From Aeromonas tecta (GTDB lineage: Bacteria; Pseudomonadota; Gammaproteobacteria; Enterobacterales; Aeromonadaceae): a stretch of 53,236 bases of DNA. Shown one piece after another: positions 11,244-43,872 of this stretch. The position numbers were made by a program, and so were the translations under genes. The stretch spans positions 1-53,236 of the forward strand of contig NZ_CDCA01000026.1 in NCBI RefSeq assembly GCF_000820185.1. Direction: 5' to 3'. A model generated the notes under the pieces. It saw only the letters and a program-made list of their open reading frames with translations. It did not search any database and was not told where the DNA came from. Positions within the stretch are counted from its first letter, which is position 1. The number at the start of each line of letters is the position of its first letter.

Positions 11244-12281
11244 ATGAAAAAGACAATTCTGGCTATCGCTATCCCGGCTCTGTTCGCATCTGCCGCTAAC
11301 GCCGCAGTAGTTTATGACAAAGACGGTACCTCTTTTGATATTTATGGCCGTGTTCAGGCTAACGTATATGCAGATCACGACGACGCTGATACTGAGCTGG
11401 TTGGTTCCTCCCGTCTGGGCTGGTCCGGCAAAGTTGCGCTGAACAACACCTGGTCTGGTATCGCCAAGACCGAGTGGCAAGTATCTGCCGAGAACTCTGA
11501 CAACAAGTTCAACTCCCGTCACATCTACGTCGGTTTCGACGGTACCCAGTACGGTAAGATCATCTTCGGCCAAACCGACACCGCGTTCTACGACGTGCTG
11601 GAGCCGACCGATATCTTCAACGAATGGGGTGACGTAGGTAACTTCTACGACGGTCGTCAAGAAGGCCAGGTCATCTATTCCAACACCTACGGTGGTTTCA
11701 AGGGCAAGCTGTCCTATCAAACCAACGATGACGTAGCCGTCAAGGTTACCGACATCGGCCAAGGCATCAAAGAAGACGCCGTTTACGGTCCGAACGTAAA
11801 ACGTAACTACGGTTACGCTGCTGCCGCCGGTTATGACTTCGACTTCGGTCTGGGTCTGAACGCTGGTTACGCTTACTCCGACCTGGAAAGCACCACTACC
11901 TCCGCTTCTGGCGACAAGAAAGAGTGGGCCCTGGGCGCACACTACGCCATCAACGGTTTCTACTTCGCCGGTATGTACACCCAGGGTGACCTGAGCTATG
12001 ACAATACCCTGGCCGGTAGCAACAAGGACAAGGGCCGTGGCTACGAGCTGGCTGCTTCCTACAACGTTGACGCCTGGACCTTCCTGGCTGGCTACAACTT
12101 CGCCGAAGGCAAAGTGCTGTCCAACACCTCCGGTTCTTCTTACGAAGACATGATTGACGAAACTCTGCTGGGCGTGCAGTACAACTTCACTTCCAAGTTC
12201 AAAGCGTACACCGAGTACAAGATCCAGAGCATCGACGACAAGGACGACGAGTTCACCGTTGCCCTGCAATACAACTTCTAA
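11244..12281 (+). CDS. General porin (OmpC/OmpF-type outer membrane protein)
   Basis: The 345-residue precursor has a signal peptide MKKTILAIAIPALFASAANA and a mature start AVVYDKDGTSFDIYGRVQ, the classical opening of trimeric gram-negative porins. It ends in LQYNF, whose terminal Phe is the signal for beta-barrel insertion by BamA. Alternating hydrophobic strands and the motifs NSRHIYVGFDGTQYGKIIFG and GVQYNF fit a 16-stranded barrel. Codon use is strongly biased (AAC, GGT, TTC, CTG), as expected for an abundant protein. The ATG at 11244 is chosen because it begins the signal peptide. It would allow passive diffusion of small solutes and is a likely antibiotic entry route. Confidence 0.93.
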   Translation: MKKTILAIAIPALFASAANAAVVYDKDGTSFDIYGRVQANVYADHDDADTELVGSSRLGWSGKVALNNTWSGIAKTEWQVSAENSDNKFNSRHIYVGFDGTQYGKIIFGQTDTAFYDVLEPTDIFNEWGDVGNFYDGRQEGQVIYSNTYGGFKGKLSYQTNDDVAVKVTDIGQGIKEDAVYGPNVKRNYGYAAAAGYDFDFGLGLNAGYAYSDLESTTTSASGDKKEWALGAHYAINGFYFAGMYTQGDLSYDNTLAGSNKDKGRGYELAASYNVDAWTFLAGYNFAEGKVLSNTSGSSYEDMIDETLLGVQYNFTSKFKAYTEYKIQSIDDKDDEFTVALQYNF

Positions 12282-13636: not shown

Positions 13637-14827
13637 ATGTTTGAAAAGGTTGTTGCCGCCCCAGCGGATCCGATCCTGGGCCTGACCGAATCTTTCCGTG
13701 CCGATACTCGTAGCCACAAGATCAATCTGGGGGTCGGGATCTACAAGGATGAGTCCGGTGCCACCCCCATACTGCACTGCGTCAAGAAAGCCGAACAGAA
13801 GCTGCTCGAAGGCGAGAAAACCAAGAATTACCTCGGCATCGAGGGCAATCTCGAATATGCCCGCATCGTGCAGCAGCTGCTGTTCGGGCAAGATGCGGCC
13901 CTGATTGCCAGTGGCCGCGCCAAGACGGCGCAAGCCCCGGGTGGTACCGGTGCCTTACGTATCGCCGCCGAGTTCGTGGTGCGCAACGGTCTGGCCAAGA
14001 CCATCTGGATTTCAGACCCCACTTGGGCCAACCACGTCAGCGTGTTCCAGGCCGCTGGCCTCACCGTCAAGCAGTACAAATACTATGACGCCGCCACGAA
14101 GGGGCTGGACTTTGCCGCCATGCAGGCGTCGCTCAGTGAAGTGCAGGCCGGTGAACTGGTGTTGCTGCACGGTTGCTGCCACAACCCGACCGGTATCGAT
14201 CCGACCACCGAGCAGTGGCAGGCCCTCGCCAAGCAGAGTGCGGCCGCCGGCTGGTTGCCGCTGTTTGACTTTGCCTATCAGGGCTTTGCTCGCGGTATCG
14301 AGGAAGATGCCGAGGGTCTGCGCATCTTCGCCGAATGTCACGACGAGCTGCTGGTGGCGAGCTCCTTCTCCAAGAACTTCGGCCTCTATAACGAGCGGGT
14401 CGGCGCCTTCACCCTGGTGAGCGCGAGCAAGGCCGTTGCCGATGTCGCCTTCACCCAGGTGAAAGCCGTCATTCGTGCCAACTACTCCAACCCGCCCTCA
14501 CACGGCGCCGCCGTGGTGACTGCCATCGTCAGTGACCCGGCACTCTACGCCGAGTGGGTGGAAGAAGTGACCGCCATGCGAGTGCGGATCCGCGAGATGC
14601 GCGAGCTGCTGGTGGCGAAGCTGGCCGAGCGTGGGGTGAATCAGGACTTTGGCTTTATCCGTGAGCAGAACGGCATGTTCTCCTTCTCCGGTCTTTCCAA
14701 GGATCAGGTTGAGCGCCTCAAGAGCGAGTTTGCCATCTACATCGTCGGCTCCGGCCGGATCAGCGTGGCCGGGATCACCCGTTCCAACATAGATCCCCTC
14801 TGCGACGCTATCGCCAAGGTGTTGTAA
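13637..14827 (+). CDS. aspC: Aromatic/aspartate aminotransferase (AspC/TyrB family)
   Basis: The 396-residue protein matches E. coli AspC in length and conserved blocks: [13 protein letters not shown], [18 protein letters not shown] ([12 protein letters not shown]), [21 protein letters not shown] and [14 protein letters not shown]. Lys246 in SFSKNF is the PLP Schiff-base residue. The enzyme interconverts aspartate and 2-oxoglutarate with oxaloacetate and glutamate, and members often accept aromatic amino acids; AspC and TyrB cannot be separated with certainty here. The start at 13637 matches the family N-terminus MFE. A strong bidirectional terminator follows. Confidence 0.92.
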
Positions 14828-16582: not shown

Positions 16583-17116
16583 TTAGGGGGTATGAGAGCG
16601 CTGTTTGCCGAGCCTGCCCAGCTGCAGCAGCAACAGGGTGAGCAGGGCACCGGCGGCAGCGGTCAGCAGCGCCAGCAGCAGGCTGCCAAGCAGGAAGGGA
16701 GGCATCAGGGTAGCCGCCTCATGCTCCAGCCAGTGCAGGGACCAGGTGAGATGGAAGGGCTCTGGCGTCTGTTGCAACAGCAGGCAGCCGGTGCGATACG
16801 CATAGAGGTACATGAAGGGCAGGGTCAGCGGATTGTTGAACCAGACCGCCAGCAGGGCCAATGGCAGGTTGAAGCCAAAGACCACCGCCAGCGCTACCGC
16901 GATGAGGGAGTGCATGGGCACCGGGATCCAGCTGGCAAAGAGCCCGGCGGCAATGGCGCCACACAGGGCCCTGCGGCCATGCTGCCACAGGGCGGGGGCA
17001 AACAGGCGCTCCCCGAACAGGGCAAACCACTTCTGCTGGCGCAGGGTATCCGGGTTCAATTTGAGACGAGCCAGCCAACCACTCAGCATAGGCGCGCCGT
17101 CTTGCGTCTCTGCCAT
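16583..17116 (-). CDS. DUF2062 membrane protein (second of tandem pair)
   Basis: The 177-residue protein has the DUF2062 pattern: a basic N-terminus, then FASWIPVPMHSLIAVALA, a cytoplasmic turn with WFNNPLTLPFMYLYAYRTG, and two or three further membrane segments. The motif N-P-x-T-x-P in NNPLTLPF is the family hallmark. It is paralogous to the gene just upstream (17083-17601) and overlaps its end by 34 bp in another frame, so the pair is probably translationally coupled. Function unknown. The ends are well fixed by the overlap and by a Met start in the last codons of its neighbour. Confidence 0.8.
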   Translation of the reverse strand: MAETQDGAPMLSGWLARLKLNPDTLRQQKWFALFGERLFAPALWQHGRRALCGAIAAGLFASWIPVPMHSLIAVALAVVFGFNLPLALLAVWFNNPLTLPFMYLYAYRTGCLLLQQTPEPFHLTWSLHWLEHEAATLMPPFLLGSLLLALLTAAAGALLTLLLLQLGRLGKQRSHTP

Positions 17117-27962: not shown

Positions 27963-28038
<76 letters not shown>

Positions 28039-28073
28039 AATTCAGACAATCGAGAGCCAACTCTCTTTTGCAT

Positions 28074-28147
28074 GGCGCGTTAGCAAAGCGGTTATGCAGC
28101 GGATTGCAAATCCGTTTAGTCCGGTTCGACTCCGGAACGTGCCTCCA
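28074..28147 (+). tRNA. tRNA-Cys (anticodon GCA)
   Basis: 74 nt including an encoded CCA. The acceptor GGCGCGT pairs with ACGTGCC (one G-U); the anticodon GCA is at 28106-28108 in GGATTGCAAATCC. Same order as in the E. coli glyW-cysT-leuZ cluster. Confidence 0.97.
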
Positions 28148-28188
28148 TATTGATATGCCCGCCACGCGGGATTGATACCGATTGCGGT

Positions 28189-28275
28189 GCCCGAGTGGTG
28201 AAATCGGTAGACACAAGGGATTTAAAATCCCTCGCTTTTCGAGGCGTGCCGGTTCGATTCCGGCCTCGGGCACCA
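28189..28275 (+). tRNA. tRNA-Leu (anticodon TAA)
   Basis: 87 nt including an encoded CCA, with the long variable arm of a class II tRNA. Acceptor GCCCGAG / CTCGGGC; anticodon TAA at 28223-28225. It lies about 370 bp from the prophage remnant and is a plausible integration site, but no duplicated 3' end was found. Confidence 0.97.
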
Positions 28276-37769: not shown

Positions 37770-37960
37770 GATATGTCCTTTCAAAATTGCGCGAGCACCG
37801 AAGGGCCCGCGGGTGTATGGCATAAAGTGGTGGCAATTCTAGCCCATCAAGGCCGCCTGGCATAGGGCGAACGCCATCTCTGGCACGTTTTGCGCCTCGT
37901 TTTCTCTACCGGATGCGGTTAGAATGTCAGACCATTTTACTCACAGGCAGTGGTCATAAG

Positions 37961-39337
37961 ATGCTGAAGATCTACAACACACTCACTCGTCAAAAAGAAG
38001 AATTCAAACCTATCCACCCGGGCAAGGTGGGCATGTATGTGTGTGGGGTCACCATTTACGATCATTGTCATATCGGCCACGGCCGCACCTTCGTCGCCTT
38101 CGACGTGGTGGCCCGTTACCTGCGCTACAGCGGCTATGAGCTGAACTATGTGCGCAACGTCACCGACGTGGACGACAAGATCATCAAGCGCGCCGCCGAG
38201 ACCCAGGTCACCTGCGACGATCTGACCGAGCGTCTGATCGGCGACATGCACGCTGATTTTGATGCCCTCGGCATGCTGCGCCCGGACATCGAGCCCCGCG
38301 CCACCCAGCACATTCACGAAATCATCGATCTGGTCGAAACCCTGATCGCCAAGGATCACGCCTACGTGGCGGACAACGGTGACGTCATGTTCATCGTCGA
38401 ATCCTTCGCCGACTACGGCAAGCTCTCGGGCCAGGATCTGGAACAGCTGCAGGCCGGCGCCCGGGTCGACGTGGTGGATGCCAAGCGCAACCCGCTCGAC
38501 TTCGTGCTGTGGAAGATGTCCAAGCCCGGCGAGCCGACCTGGGACAGCCCCTGGGGCCCGGGTCGTCCCGGCTGGCACATCGAGTGCTCCGCCATGAACT
38601 CCAAGCACCTTGGCAACCATTTCGACATCCACGGCGGCGGCTCGGATCTGCAGTTCCCGCACCACGAGAACGAGATTGCCCAGTCCTGCTGCGCCCACGG
38701 TGGCGACTACGTCAACACCTGGATGCACAGCGGCATGGTGATGGTGGATAAAGAGAAGATGTCCAAGTCCCTTGGCAACTTCTTCACCATCCGCGACGTC
38801 CTGGCCCATTACGACGCCGAAACCGTGCGCTACTTCCTGATGTCCGGCCACTATCGCAGCCAGCTCAACTACTCGGAAGATAACCTCAAGCAAGCCCGCA
38901 CCGCCCTTGAGCGCATGTACACCGCCTTGCGTGACCTGCCCGTGGTGCCCGCCGCCGGTGGGGAAGAGCAGCTGGCTCGCTTTGTTGATGCCATGAACGA
39001 TGACTTCAACACCCCGGAAGCCTACTCCGCCCTGTTCGATCTGGTGCGTGAGATCAACCGTCAGAAGAGCGAAGACGTAGCCGCAGCTGCCGGTCTTGCC
39101 GCCCGCCTGCGCGAACTCGGCGCCGTGCTCGGCATACTGCAGCAGGATCCGGACGCCTTCCTCAAAGGTGACGAGGCCGACGACGAAGTGGCCGAAATCG
39201 AGCAACTGATCGCCCAGCGCAACCAGGCCCGCGCCGACAAGAACTGGGCCGCGGCGGATGCCGCCCGTAACCGTCTCACCGAGATGGGCATAGTGCTGGA
39301 AGACAGCGCCGGCAAAACCAGCTGGCGCCGTGCATAA
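37961..39337 (+). CDS. cysS: Cysteinyl-tRNA synthetase
   Basis: The 458-residue class I synthetase has [16 protein letters not shown] (HIGH motif, with a zinc Cys at CG), GWHIECSAM and HHENEIAQS for zinc binding, and [10 protein letters not shown] (KMSKS loop). It charges tRNA-Cys; a tRNA-Cys gene lies at 28074-28147. The start at 37961 agrees with the family opening [11 protein letters not shown] terminator follows. Confidence 0.97.
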
Positions 39338-39375
39338 GGCCGGTTGTCCTGTTGGTGCCAACAGGTCAACCCAAT

Positions 39376-39408
39376 AAAAAATCGCAGCCCTTGGGCTGCG
39401 GTTTTTGT
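39376..39408 (+). terminator. Terminator after cysS
   Basis: AAAAATCGCAGCCC / GGGCTGCGGTTTTT stem, 40 bp after the cysS stop. Confidence 0.9.
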
Positions 39409-39462
39409 TTGTGCCTTTTCCCTCGAAGCCTCTTAAGCCTTTGCTGCCTCTGCTCTGATCCC

Positions 39463-39725
39463 CTCGCCCCTTGGGGGAGAGGGCTAGGGTGAGGGGTCGC
39501 TAACGTTATTCCCCTGCGGAATGCCGTCCTACGCCTGAATGGCATGGCTTCGCCATGCAGGACACGAGGGCTCTGCCCTCGAAGGGGTTTCGCCCGCCCT
39601 TCGGGCTGGGGCGAGTGACTTTGGAAAGACCCAAAGTCACCAAAAGTCTTCTCCCCCGGCAAACCGCCCACTTCGCGGGTGCCCTAGTCTCGTCCAACGG
39701 GTCGGACGGAACGCCGCAGACGGCA
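39463..39725 (+). repeat. Left inverted repeat of the immunity-gene island
   Basis: A chain of hairpins: GCATGGCTTCGCCATGC (39542-39558), CGAGGGCTCTGCCCTCG (39565-39581), GCCCGCCCTTCGGGC, and GTGACTTTG..CAAAGTCAC (39615-39640). The same series appears in reverse orientation at 42230-42521, with matching linkers such as CGGAATGCCGT/CGGAATGTCGT. It begins with a CCCTCGCCCC..GGGGGAGAGGG block common in gammaproteobacterial intergenic repeats. It does not code for a convincing protein. Confidence 0.8.
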
Positions 39726-39906
39726 CTTTGGCCTACGCCATCCATGGCTTCGGCCAAAGCCCACTTCGAACCTCCCTGTTCTCGCGCCAAATCGGGGTCG
39801 AGCAGTGCTCGCCCTGACCCGATTTGGCCCCTATGCCGGCTGCGCCATCATCCGTGACGGCGCTCCTGACCCGTTGAACTCGACTCGGCGATTGTGCTTG
39901 GCCTTG

Positions 39907-40722
39907 TTATGCCTTACCTACACCAAACCACGATTTGAGCTTTGAACCCCATTTTTTCTCGTAGAATGGTTTAACTTGATTTGTAAAGTATTGGCTAAGT
40001 CCAGAATCACTTTCATTGACCTTGTACAGATCAACAGACTCGCCTTCTGGCACGGTATCGCCAGCCACGTTGCCAGCCTCCCTCATTACCTTTTCAATAT
40101 CACCATCTGCTTCTATACCAACTATTAGATGCGGTTTCTCATCAACAGATGTGTCATGCATAAGTACCAAATAAGCTTTTTTTACATTGCCATGTTTTGC
40201 CAATAGCTGAGTAAGTGAATCAACCATTTTTGATGGATAATTAGACGGCTCCCCCAGCAGCACCTTAGTTTCTTTCTCCACAATTCTCTGGGATGGCTCC
40301 CGACTGATGCCGATAGATAACAAGTGTGCTACTTCTTCAGGAACAAACTCTTTTCCATAGTCTGATTTTGGGTTAAGAAATAGCGTAGCTCCTTGTGTCA
40401 TTTCAAACAAAGAACGTACTGGTAGGGCCAAATATGATTCTTCGCTATCGATAGATTTTTGTAACACTTCTAGCGAGGAAAAGAAAGGAATTACAGGTGA
40501 GCCATCAGCCTTTTCCCAATGCTGTATTTGAATTTTACTTCCAGCTGCGAGATTCACTTGTCCGTCCGTGCCTGGCACTCCAGTTGTACCAAGCAAAAAG
40601 ACGTGCGAACTTAGCAGGACTTCACAGAATTGTGGTCGATGGGCTGGTTCGTTTGCAGCCAATCTTAAAATCTCTTCAAGTTTATTTTCTTCGGTTATTT
40701 CCACGGTTTGTCCTTTAGACAT
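39907..40722 (-). CDS. SseB-family protein (N- and C-terminal SseB domains)
   Basis: The 271-residue protein has an SseB N-terminal domain (LEEILRLAANEPAHRPQFCE, VIPFFSSLEVLQKSI, ALPVRSLFEM) and an SseB_C domain (KAYLVLMHDTSVDEKPHLIV, then GIEADGD). E. coli SseB (258 residues) is linked to serine sensitivity. SseB-type domains also occur among immunity proteins of polymorphic toxins. The gene is clearly more AT-rich than its flanks and lies within an inverted-repeat island beside a SUKH gene, so an immunity-like role is plausible but not shown. A related repeat lies upstream at 40989-41270. Apparently intact. Confidence 0.8.
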   Translation of the reverse strand: MSKGQTVEITEENKLEEILRLAANEPAHRPQFCEVLLSSHVFLLGTTGVPGTDGQVNLAAGSKIQIQHWEKADGSPVIPFFSSLEVLQKSIDSEESYLALPVRSLFEMTQGATLFLNPKSDYGKEFVPEEVAHLLSIGISREPSQRIVEKETKVLLGEPSNYPSKMVDSLTQLLAKHGNVKKAYLVLMHDTSVDEKPHLIVGIEADGDIEKVMREAGNVAGDTVPEGESVDLYKVNESDSGLSQYFTNQVKPFYEKKWGSKLKSWFGVGKA

Positions 40723-40988
40723 AACAGTGATTAGATAGACGGTGGTACTAATCCGATAGCAAAGCCTTCCATATAACTCCGTTCTGTCCTGATAGTTGTC
40801 ACGAAAAAAATCAAATTAAATCAAAATACTACTAGTCTATCTCTGATGCTTGAATGTATTCGCTTGACCTCCTCTTTTTACTCTATCATTACCACTGTAT
40901 AAAAAAATAGTTTAGGAGCCAGCTATGGAGAGTATCGCCAAACCCTGTCTGCGTGAACAGGTCTGGATAGTGATGCGTTTGCATTAGG

Positions 40989-41270
40989 GTCGTAGGTTCG
41001 ATTAGCGAAGCGTAATCGGACCTTCTATATACAACCGTTCCCGATAGATATCTGTGCCGCTTGCTGCTTTGCTCACCATGATTTTTTCACCTATTCAACC
41101 ATGTCGATATCACTGGTTGTATAGGCGCGATAATCTGGTCTCGCCATGAAGTGGGCGAGGGGTAGCTGCGAGATAACAACCCACCCGAGCTTTACCCCGA
41201 ATAGACAGGGGCTGTTAACTGGTCTTGGGGCTGAAGGTTCGGGCTTGCCCCTGTTGTTCGCCGAGATGAA
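40989..41270 (+). repeat. Direct repeat copy 1 (upstream of the SseB gene)
   Basis: The unit contains GGTTCGATTA..TAATCGGACC (an imperfect stem, 40995-41022), CCTTCTATATA, TGTGCCGCTTG and CTGTTGTTCGCCGAG. The same blocks in the same order recur at 41962-42178. The 670-bp stretch 40723-41392 otherwise holds no gene I can support; short frames at 40925 and 41146 look random. Confidence 0.65.
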
Positions 41271-41392
41271 AGCACAACTTCAGGACGAAGGCCATTGCTT
41301 GTTCAAGGCTAGCGGCAACAAGCTTGTCCCAAAACCTTAGCTATCAGAAATAGCATTGAATTAATGATTATGAATACGTGCAGTTTGATAGT

Positions 41393-41923
41393 CTATTTAT
41401 TAAGCTTTCTATTTTTCCTTTCAGCTAGTTCATTAAGTTCGTGTTCGATTAACTCAAACCAGGTTTTATCTACGCGCTCGAAGGTATTCTCTTCATGTAA
41501 ATATCTTACCAGTCGGCCCTCTTCATTATAACAATAGACATTGGCATCAGCCAAAATCCTGAGAACTGGAATTGCTTTGTGACCTAACTCTTTGAACTGT
41601 TCTGCTGCTATATTTATATTCATCCATTCAGGAGCATCCTCGCTATAAGCGTAAGAATAGACACCTCGCAAAAACTCCCAATATGGTGCCACAGCCAGCA
41701 CTTCTGCATATGGCCACAATTCCTCTTTAACCTCTATAAAGAATCCACCCAGCGTTCCCATAGCATGAGAGATATAGTCATCTGGAAATTTAATACCATA
41801 CCTCTCTCCAAGAGTTATCACCTCATGTTTTGTGGGAGCCTGATCTCCTGCCGCAACAATGTAATAATAATCATCCCAGATCTCAAGTATTAGTTCTCTT
41901 GTTTTATCTGTTACGTTAACCAT
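41393..41923 (-). CDS. SMI1/KNR4 (SUKH) family immunity-like protein
   Basis: The 176-residue protein shows the SUKH core: EVITLGERYGIKFPDDYISH, then GTLGGFFIEVKEELWP and PEWMNINIAAEQFKELGHKA. SUKH proteins protect against secreted nuclease and other toxins of contact-dependent and type VI systems. No toxin gene is visible beside it, so this would be an orphan immunity gene. The sequence is AT-rich relative to the region. Repeats lie on both sides. Apparently intact. Confidence 0.8.
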   Translation of the reverse strand: MVNVTDKTRELILEIWDDYYYIVAAGDQAPTKHEVITLGERYGIKFPDDYISHAMGTLGGFFIEVKEELWPYAEVLAVAPYWEFLRGVYSYAYSEDAPEWMNINIAAEQFKELGHKAIPVLRILADANVYCYNEEGRLVRYLHEENTFERVDKTWFELIEHELNELAERKNRKLNK

Positions 41924-41961
41924 TGTTTATTGTCATCCTGTTAGCATTGTCTGTAGAGACG

Positions 41962-42178
41962 ATGGTTCAATTAATAAAGCGTAATTCAGCATTCGAAAAA
42001 TTAAAATTCTGCCACGGTGAAATACTTACTATAAGGCCTTCTATATAAGGTTATTCCCAGATAAGATGGTGTGCCGCTTGTTGTTGTATTCAAATTTACT
42101 TTTTTACCCATCTGTATAAGTGCGACCATTTAACCTCGGGGCTGAAGATTCGGGGTTGCCCCCTGTTGTTCGCCGAGG
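41962..42178 (+). repeat. Direct repeat copy 2 (upstream of the SUKH gene)
   Basis: It shares with copy 1 the blocks GGTTCAATTA..AAAGCGTAAT, GGCCTTCTATATA, GTGTGCCGCTTGTTG, TCGGGGCTGAAG and CCTGTTGTTCGCCGAGG, with a short insertion near 41985-42030. Each repeat copy lies 5' of one immunity-like gene, giving two gene-repeat units in tandem. The rest of 41924-42858 has no supported gene. Confidence 0.65.
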
Positions 42179-42229
42179 CTAGGGCAGAAGGTCAGGTGCG
42201 CTGTCATGGACGACGGCGCAGACGCAGGC

Positions 42230-42521
42230 GGTACAGGGATGTACCGTCTGCGTCGTTCCGCCAGGCCTTTTGCCCTAACCGAGGGCACTCGACGCAGGAG
42301 GGCGAACAAGCGGGGGTTGCCTTTCTTTTGGTGACTTTTCTTTGGCCACGCAAAGAAAAGTCACTCGCCTCAGCCCGAAGGGCGGGCGAAACCCCGTCGA
42401 GGATGGCGTTCTCGCGTCCTGCATGGCGAAGCCATACCAATGCTGCGGCCTACGACATTCCGCAAGGCAATGACGTTACCTCGCCCCTCACCCTGACCCT
42501 CTCCCGCAGGGGGAGAGGGGA
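42230..42521 (-). repeat. Right inverted repeat of the immunity-gene island
   Basis: The reverse-oriented counterpart of 39463-39725. It contains GTGACTTTTC..GAAAAGTCAC (42331-42364), GCCCGAAGGGCGGGC, GCATGGCGAAGCCAT (42421-42435) and CCTCACCCTGACCCTCTCCC. An additional perfect 15-bp stem with a GGGA loop (42221-42254) lies at its inner end. Arms match over about 200 bp with moderate divergence. Confidence 0.8.
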
Positions 42522-42858
42522 CAGCCCTCGCCGAGGCGCGGGATGCCGGGCTGGCATCCGTCAGGGACGCTGCCGCCTAGCGTTGACTGCCAGAGTGCGT
42601 CGTGAACTGTCACAAAAAGAGGGGGCCTGCGGCCGCGCCACCATCTTACGGAGCCATTTTGGTCTAATCCATGGCTTTGATTAGTTAACTGTCAGAAATG
42701 AATGAATTTTTGCGCTGCTTCAAAGTTCCGAGAAGGAACCTGGACTCGGGCCCGAATTTTATCGCGCCTGAGCCTTGCTTGGCTCCAGAGGGGCTTGATT
42801 GCCCATGGGCGGGTTGGCTATCGTGGGCGGGTATGACATGCAAGCTGGGAGTATAGGC

Positions 42859-43872
42859 ATGGACAAGATATTGCAGGCCCTGTCGGTACAGGTCACGGCA
42901 GCGCGGGATCTGGAGAGCCTGACGCGGCCGTTGCTGGAGATGCTCGAAGCGGTGACCGGGCTGGAGTCGACCTATCTCACCGAGATCGATCTGGGGGAGG
43001 GCAAGCAGAGCATTCGCTACGCCCGCAACGTGGCCGGATTGCAGATCCCGGAGGGGATCTCGGTGGATTGGAGCGATACCCTGTGCCGGCGCGCCATCGA
43101 TGAGGGGCGCATGTATACCGACAACGTCGCCGACTGCTGGGGGGATTCCGAGGCGGCCAGTGCGCTCGGCATTCGCACCTACCTGAGCAGCCCGGTGCGC
43201 ACGCCATCGGGCTCGCTCTATGGCACCCTGTGCGCCGCCAGCGCCGAACAGCGGCCCTTCGTGGCGGGCTCGGAGCAGCTGATCGCCTTCTTCGCGCGGC
43301 TCATCGCCGAGCACGTGGAGCGCGAGCAGTTGCTGCAGCAGTTGCAGCAGGCGAACCATGAGCTGTCGCGCCAGGCGCTGTGCGATCCCCTGACCGGCCT
43401 TGCCAACCGCCGCGCCCTGATGCACGAGCTGGCTCGGCTGTTCCCCCTGTCGGAGCGGGCCGGTCATCCGGTGCTCGTCGCCTTCATCGATCTGGACGGT
43501 TTCAAGGTCATCAACGACACCCACGGTCACGAGACGGGGGATCTGCTGCTCAGCACCCTGGCCAGGCAACTGGGCTCGGCCCTGCGCAGTGGCGATCTGC
43601 TGGCGCGGGTGGGGGGCGATGAATTTGTCGCCGTGGGCATGGGCCCCATTCACGGGGAGGAGACAGTGGAGGCGGCGGTGCACTGTTTCCAGCGCCGACT
43701 GTTCGAGCACAGCGTGCTGCAACTGCCGCTCGGCGCCCAGGTGCTGCATTACCCCGGCGCCAGCGTGGGGGTGGTGGCCATCGATCCGGCCTACACCAGC
43801 ATCGACGATGCTCTGCGCCAGGCCGATGCGCGCATGTACGCGGTCAAGCGCCAGCGCCGTGCCCAGGGATAG
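42859..43872 (+). CDS. GAF-GGDEF diguanylate cyclase
   Basis: The 337-residue protein has an N-terminal GAF domain (about residues 10-155; LLEMLEAVTGLESTYLTEID, VRTPSGSLYGTLCAAS). A short coiled linker (QLLQQLQQANHELSRQALCD) leads to a GGDEF domain with DPLTGLANRRAL and the active site GGDEF at 252-256. RSGD, five residues before it, forms an inhibitory I-site for c-di-GMP. It should make c-di-GMP in response to an unknown GAF ligand. ATG 42859 has GGGAG upstream and is preferred to 42799. No membrane segment. Confidence 0.9.
   Translation: MDKILQALSVQVTAARDLESLTRPLLEMLEAVTGLESTYLTEIDLGEGKQSIRYARNVAGLQIPEGISVDWSDTLCRRAIDEGRMYTDNVADCWGDSEAASALGIRTYLSSPVRTPSGSLYGTLCAASAEQRPFVAGSEQLIAFFARLIAEHVEREQLLQQLQQANHELSRQALCDPLTGLANRRALMHELARLFPLSERAGHPVLVAFIDLDGFKVINDTHGHETGDLLLSTLARQLGSALRSGDLLARVGGDEFVAVGMGPIHGEETVEAAVHCFQRRLFEHSVLQLPLGAQVLHYPGASVGVVAIDPAYTSIDDALRQADARMYAVKRQRRAQG

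Follow-up and report, generated by a model that had tools for sequence, protein, structure and literature searches.

A probable integron relic holding an SseB-family gene in a cysS-anchored exchange interval of Aeromonas tecta

The interval between cysS and the GAF-GGDEF gene

We analyzed a contig stretch of 53,236 nucleotides (nt) from Aeromonas tecta (here, the window, to the whole of which all positions refer), in which a small island separates cysS (37913 to 39337, plus strand, an open reading frame [ORF]) from a GAF-GGDEF gene (42799 to 43872, plus strand, an ORF with Pfam support). An original prediction described this island as two orphan immunity genes, an SseB-family and a SUKH gene, enclosed by hairpin-rich inverted repeats. 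The island is AT-rich as stated there, with its G+C content dropping to about 0.40 to 0.48. Integrons are bacterial gene-capture devices, and sequence comparisons indicate that the SseB-family gene very probably sits in the attI cassette position of an integron relic. A separate SUKH-like gene accompanies it within an interval that exchanges its cargo, and the attI belongs to a genus-wide family.

The evidence for the relic lies directly upstream of the SseB-family gene. An attI site with a cassette-directed leader (40723 to 40923, minus strand) is 82% identical over 265 nt, intI start included, to a copy on C38 of the same genome and 85% identical over about 210 nt to another on C30. Divergent from it stands the 5' stub of intI (40925 to 40987, plus strand), 20 codons followed by a stop (MESIAKPCLREQVWIVMRLH), with 78% identity over about 23 codons to the intact Aeromonas IntI of genome G388 (tblastn, E = 2e-5), so that attI and the start of intI together span 40723 to 40987. 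The claim that no integrase lies between the repeats is contradicted by this stub. The attI/cassette core CTGTTATG (40720 to 40727, minus strand, with the recombination point G^TT) marks the alignment boundary, and across the attI family the alignment ends sharply after CACTGTTA, beyond which the genes are unrelated. Near the far end of the site, CTGTATAAAAAAATAG (40895 to 40910, plus strand; CTGTATATAAAAACAG in the C38 copy) resembles a LexA box. The attI also holds a 13-codon leader ORF, MEGFAIGLVPPSI (40731 to 40772, minus strand), with GGAG upstream, which resembles ORF-11 of attI1 as described in PMC8876359.

The SseB-family gene (39907 to 40722, minus strand) has its 5' end at the core and its 3' end in the R'' box of an attC at the stop codon, and its product matches the Pfam families SseB and SseB_C (E = 2e-33 for PF14581 and 2e-21 for PF07179). 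Because it occupies the attI cassette position while intI is cut to 20 codons, the gene was likely inserted by an integron integrase. What is left of its attC (39893 to 39913, minus strand) is the R'' box GGCATAAC (39906 to 39913), overlapping the stop codon, and a short stretch. The rest is absent where this remnant meets the left repeat, and in a blastn comparison the cysS flank of A. caviae KAM479 aligns as far as 39893. In place of the functional integrase gene of a complete integron, the window has the 20-codon stub only, whereas its attI is paired with an integron core, given the 82% identity to the attI and intI start on C38 and the boundary at the core. Clusters of attC sites lacking an integrase (CALIN) have at least two attC sites without intI, and the window has one partial attC by inspection, no attC finder having been run. 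Plasmid-borne SseB-like proteins number 41 records, and the ten listed among them, from Pantoea, are about 52% identical.

The SUKH-like gene (41393 to 41923, minus strand) lies on the other side of the intI stub and does not look cassette-like; inspection of its ends revealed neither an attI nor an attC. Its product reaches only 21.7 bits to PF09346 (SMI1/KNR4, SUKH-1), under the Pfam cutoff of 25.4. Plasmid relatives of the SUKH-like protein amount to two matches at 28 to 30% identity. Neither protein matched a PADLOC model at 1e-8, and both products are candidate immunity proteins at most. Two copies of a repeat, element B, lie on the plus strand on either side of the SUKH-like gene, one at 40987 to 41284 (found by self-comparison and in the comparison of cysS loci) and the other at 41954 to 42196 (self-comparison). 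The region from 39340 to 42700 matched no phage record.

The predicted hairpin-rich inverted repeats are real. The left repeat (39459 to 39893, in the chromosomal flank) and its inverted copy on the right (42241 to 42521, from self-comparison and genome search), neither assigned a strand, share four pairs of arms: 39501 to 39622 with 42357 to 42478 (122 nt, 82%), 39459 to 39496 with 42484 to 42521 (38 nt, 87%), 39676 to 39726 with 42241 to 42291 (51 nt, 73%), and 39633 to 39646 with 42325 to 42338 (14 nt, 100%). Since the left repeat used as a genome query recovered the right one at E = 2.9e-38, the pairing is not due to chance. The repeats are also dispersed and intergenic. One arm has four matches in its own genome, where C21 and C30 carry single copies, and it is matched in 34 of the 37 Aeromonas genomes of our comparison set, 1 to 25 times each (E ≤ 1e-10; the 25 are in G377). 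Because of this dispersal, we rejected the repeat pair as ends peculiar to one element. In Escherichia coli, among 20 listed of 1,557 matching records, only a 39- to 40-nt piece of the left repeat matched.

A match to the TwoAYGGAY RNA motif (Rfam RF01731, 46 bits against a cutoff of 43; 42151 to 42310, plus strand) extends from the end of element B into the right repeat, which makes a portion of this dispersed repeat of Aeromonas a catalogued RNA motif. No match to the motif was found in the left repeat. Further matches occur in L020, L128, L135 (two), L140, L147, L216, L189, L194, and L203. Nothing seen pointed to a recombined Rhs/CDI tail, the other origin proposed for the boundaries, and no dedicated Rhs/CDI search was made.

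A genus-wide family of attI sites

The attI of the window has relatives within the genome and beyond it. Positions 40717 to 40985 match C38:28984-29248 (82%, 265 nt), where an integrase gene that exceeds the TIGR02249 cutoff at 396 bits is interrupted by one internal TGA and one TAA. Beyond the divergent attI at the intI start come ORFs and four 135-nt attC-like repeats (63 to 73% alike), one of which gave z = -5.1 when folded. The C30 copy stands upstream of a Trypsin_2 gene. Positions 40720 to 40981 are also found by blastn upstream of other genes in plasmids of Pseudomonas mendocina (L027, 5001 to 5261) and Enterobacter (L028, 5001 to 5185, a conjugative plasmid), with no integrase seen alongside and an unrelated gene behind each. 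A pair of 33-nt direct repeats, 88% alike, brackets the C38 integron (L042, 11433 to 17012, equal to C38:25432-31011), at 11433 on the left and at 16917 on the right, where the repeat overlaps a tRNA gene (16928 to 17012), as if the integron were placed in a tRNA-bounded island. A tandem repeat of 8-nt units occupies the distal end of its cassette array (L042, 11600 to 11707), and a TTGCAAC-type tandem lies in a cassette ORF (13988 to 14055).

Across the 37 Aeromonas genomes, attI is present in 29, with 82 matches and up to 10 per genome (G377), while 3 of 369 genomes of the class carry it, that of the window included (at most two candidates scored per genome). Integrase genes exceed the family cutoff in 4 of the 37 (search at E ≤ 1e-40). 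We analyzed 78 attI copies or pieces, 76 from Aeromonas (of the 82 matches) and the 2 from plasmids. By tblastn, intI is intact beside one and a pseudogene beside another, and pieces of it accompany six more, the window included; fewer than 1,200 nt of flank were available for 5 of the 78. The upstream flanks of 75 copies fall into 39 clusters, 12 of them with several members. Taking as first ORF the longest one starting near the core, a mechanical choice, we found one of at least 80 codons behind 70 of the 78 copies. All 70 proteins, SseB among them, are mutually unrelated (no pair at E = 1e-5 over half of the shorter one). They match 31 Pfam families, the most common being HNH with three members, and Imm41 and SseB occur once each. 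A PADLOC search at 1e-5 returned 143 models, with one or two members each among the 25 listed.

Junctions made by an integrase between attI and attC should leave the 5' end of a cassette complementary to the R'' box behind its first gene. For the 52 copies that have both a first ORF and an intact core, the summed pairing score was 177, compared with a mean of 114 (standard deviation, 6.5; maximum, 137) in 2,000 permutations, none of which reached 177. This result supports integrase-made attI x attC junctions.

Three side observations concern members of this family and their integrases. In G377, a VCR-like attC follows a tandem pair of attI-gene units on L165 (3215 to 4900), which are spaced by about 0.9 kb. 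In G403, integron integrase copies at C1 349564-350507 and 4144349-4145292 are each split into two overlapping matches, and C1 3607164-3608108 is an unbroken match. The DUF805 RNA (RF03081) lies upstream of attI in L169 (539 to 609), L180 (4872 to 4941), and L208 (1036 to 1106), which form one shared-flank cluster.

A JUMPstart leader with the ops core is the leader used by RfaH, and such leaders are known to head polysaccharide, conjugation, and similar operons. An Rfam search of the loci holding 74 of the 78 attI copies returned 36 matches to the JUMPstart RNA (RF01707), all in the sense orientation and upstream of an attI, 30 of them within 450 nt (30 of 74 copies) and 6 at 572 to 1,118 nt. 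No match reaches the pseudogene-bearing C38 copy. Of the 76 copies with sufficient flanking sequence, 36 have the exact ops core GGCGGTAG within 430 nt upstream, compared with 1 of 76 on the opposite strand and 1 of 282 downstream windows; with one mismatch allowed, the counts are 45 of 76 upstream and 47 of 282 controls. RfaH itself (TIGR01955) is present above its cutoff in 36 of the 37 genomes. Our literature search returned no paper containing both RfaH and attC, and by title the comentions of RfaH or JUMPstart with integrons look incidental. We found no paper linking RfaH/ops leaders to attI or integron cassettes, in a search that left most subscription papers outside.

Exchange at the cysS and trpA sites

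The 3' end of cysS, the conserved left flank of the interval, is matched in all 37 genomes (the match in G399 being short and weak), and the GAF-GGDEF gene forms the right flank. We compared 31 cysS loci, each with 2.5 kb or more available, the window and KAM479 included. In other species, the cysS-anchored interval is occupied by different cargo, as the original prediction anticipated for an exchange locus, and KAM479, which has the repeats at cysS, matched neither gene of the window there. The hairpin repeat is present on the left in 15 of the 31 loci, on the right in 21, and on both sides in 13; in 16 loci the left repeat was not found. Element B occurs in 19 of the 31, and attI in 2, the window and G402, a genome of another species whose attI has the same position next to element B but precedes a different first ORF.

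From 24 cysS loci, we extracted 62 cargo ORFs by a mechanical rule, and the main proteins of 17 hand-picked loci among these were scanned singly with PADLOC. Models were matched in 14 of the 17 and in none of the remaining 3; they include GajA/GajB, LmuB, HamB, Drt3b, RT-UG5-nitrilase, DarT, an Old-like protein, the candidate PDC-M60, and weaker ones. A single site with differing defense systems in relatives, as found in these 14 loci, is what defines an anti-phage hotspot. Because of this varied anti-phage cargo and the attI and intI stub at the SseB-family gene, the supposed orphan immunity island is, judged by its sequence, the relic of an integron together with a SUKH-like gene within a defense-type hotspot. 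The word cysS was absent among the matches listed in our literature search on the hotspot.

A second site emerged at trpA, which was found in 36 of the 37 genomes, with 32 loci mapped, some of which lie close to the end of a contig. Beside trpA, G388 carries its intact integron, arranged as trpA, hairpin repeat, JUMPstart, intI, attI. At the same place, attI without intI is present in 10 species, including that of the window (the C30 copy), and the first ORFs of at least 80 codons in 9 of these 10 copies are all unrelated. The junction from ops core to attI is alike, with similar spacing, in 7 of the 10 by inspection, which suggests a shared ancestral deletion of intI at trpA. In 9 further species, a JUMPstart-type module lies at trpA with attI undetected (by blastn and a search for the ops core or a one-base variant, with no Rfam run). 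Among the cargo of 8 such ops-module loci without attI, 4 of 9 proteins match PADLOC models. By this measure trpA looks like a second, RfaH-type defense hotspot, and it is probably the ancestral site of the attI family. The loci L221, L222, L228, and L231, at trpA with attI undetected, gave the PADLOC matches HamB-like, PDC-M02B, PDC-M26A, and PDC-S64. We offer both Aeromonas exchange sites, cysS-GGDEF and trpA, as places to look for defense and cassette genes.

Origin of the SseB cassette and related systems

We propose that the SseB cassette was inserted at its attI by an integrase that was either resident until the deletion or provided in trans. The attI leader would drive the cassette, perhaps aided by the 13-codon ORF and its GGAG. 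Exchange of cargo at cysS likely proceeds as whole blocks by homologous recombination between the flanks and the flanking dispersed repeats. Elsewhere in the family, cassettes at sites without intI could turn over through an integrase acting in trans or through recombination with other copies, and at sites that retain the ops leader, transcription would be extended into the cassettes by RfaH. A bolder and tentative extension, which we consider rather unlikely as a whole, is that Aeromonas has replaced the resident integron with scattered integrase-free docking sites. Each would combine an RfaH-type JUMPstart with attI and a different cassette, be loaded in trans by visiting integrases, and be read as a long antiterminated transcript, and the SseB-family gene would be a docked gene that lost its RfaH leader and was stranded in a defense hotspot.

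Several observations weigh against parts of this account. Excision of the SseB cassette in its present state would hardly be possible, because its attC is reduced to the R'' box plus a short stretch, and that box matches the cassette 5' end at 4 of 5. Folding of three attC sites gave z values of -5.10, -2.70, and -0.77, the last no better than shuffled sequences. The attI of the window has no ops core within 430 nt and no JUMPstart match in Rfam. Nor was intI lost everywhere by one deletion: L113 keeps about 200 nt of its 5' end and L124 a 3' piece, so the deletions differ. At trpA, attI distances (mean, 0.28) and trpA distances (mean, 0.10) are uncorrelated (Mantel r = -0.23, P = 0.82, n = 10), which leaves simple vertical inheritance of attI with cassette swapping unsupported. 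Therefore, either attI-cassette blocks were swapped by recombination or attI evolution is too irregular to tell.

That lack of correlation is one of the points favoring a different route for the SseB-family gene, in which homologous recombination through flanking genes and repeats brought the whole attI-gene block into the cysS hotspot, and integrase action took place elsewhere, long ago. This import fits the identity of the relic and competes only over how the cassette came to the cysS site, and we give it a little less than an even chance. Many unrelated systems occupy the hotspot with attI undetected, and attI is present at just 2 of the 31 cysS loci, both in favor of such an import; the G402 copy, at the same position with another first ORF, speaks against it and also fits a change of cassette in place. 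Another reading is that of an undescribed mobilizable cassette ending in the two hairpin-rich inverted repeats, as the boundaries were originally interpreted. The repeats are indeed inverted, their best arms are about 82 to 87% alike, and they flank cargo on both sides in 13 of 31 cysS loci. However, their single copies on C21 and C30, their 1 to 25 matches in each of 34 genomes, the 16 cysS loci in which no left repeat was found, and the repeats of KAM479 without either gene make this improbable. It is less probable still, to the point of being largely refuted, that the shared leader is a mobile promoter or leader that inserts before arbitrary genes and is not an attI. About 200 nt do precede 70 unrelated first ORFs, and ops sequences lie upstream of many copies, but this leader is the attI of integrons with a recognizable intI (C38 and G388), its gene-side boundary is the integron core, and the R'' pairing was reached in none of the 2,000 permutations.

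An integron relic as the source of the SseB position can be set beside described systems. The class 4-like chromosomal integron of Aeromonas sp. 3925 (PMC10609294) likewise has intI, an attI of about 200 nt (227 nt in 3925), a GTTRRRY core, and attC cassettes. By that description, the window differs in its 20-codon intI stub, single cassette, and truncated attC, and nearly all examined members of the attI family differ in lacking intI. CALINs, reported in A. veronii (PMC6715197) and described as mobilizable in trans (PMC12444791), share cassettes without an adjoining integrase; they are defined by clusters of attC, whereas the window has an attI heading a single cassette. An attI-headed CALIN is reported in a Shewanella prophage (PMC9892861). 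Decayed chromosomal integrons, in Xanthomonas at ilvD (PMC12444791) and in Treponema (PMC3607928), have likewise lost intI and left remnants, in Xanthomonas at a single ancestral chromosomal site. There, strains sharing an intI defect usually have identical arrays (PMC12444791), unlike the ten Aeromonas species with an attI lacking intI at trpA, whose nine first ORFs are unrelated and whose copies are scattered through the genome. Delta-attI gene cassettes (PMC12901181) also place a partial or whole attI in unusual positions, but they are cassettes of mobile class 1 and 2 integrons with attI replacing attC downstream; here attI is upstream and chromosomal. The JUMPstart/ops leaders of RF01707 have the same 38-nt motif and ops core in sense orientation upstream of variable genes, and the Aeromonas ones differ from known leaders in preceding integron attI sites, the window copy being without JUMPstart.

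The loss of intI from chromosomal integrons, CALINs and a chromosomal integron in Aeromonas, and an attI-headed CALIN are already in print. We found no report of multiple attI copies lacking intI with unrelated first genes across a genus, most subscription papers being outside the search.

The usual picture of an integron is one integrase, one attI, and one array. In Aeromonas, attI outlives and outnumbers intI genus-wide, with unrelated first genes at the copies examined and often behind an RfaH/ops leader. This raises the questions of whether attI sites lacking intI are still loaded in trans and whether RfaH decides which cassettes are expressed. Because attI outnumbers intI and often follows such a leader, both loading in trans and control by RfaH are directly testable. 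Elsewhere in the window, three tRNA genes lie in a row at 27963 to 28272.

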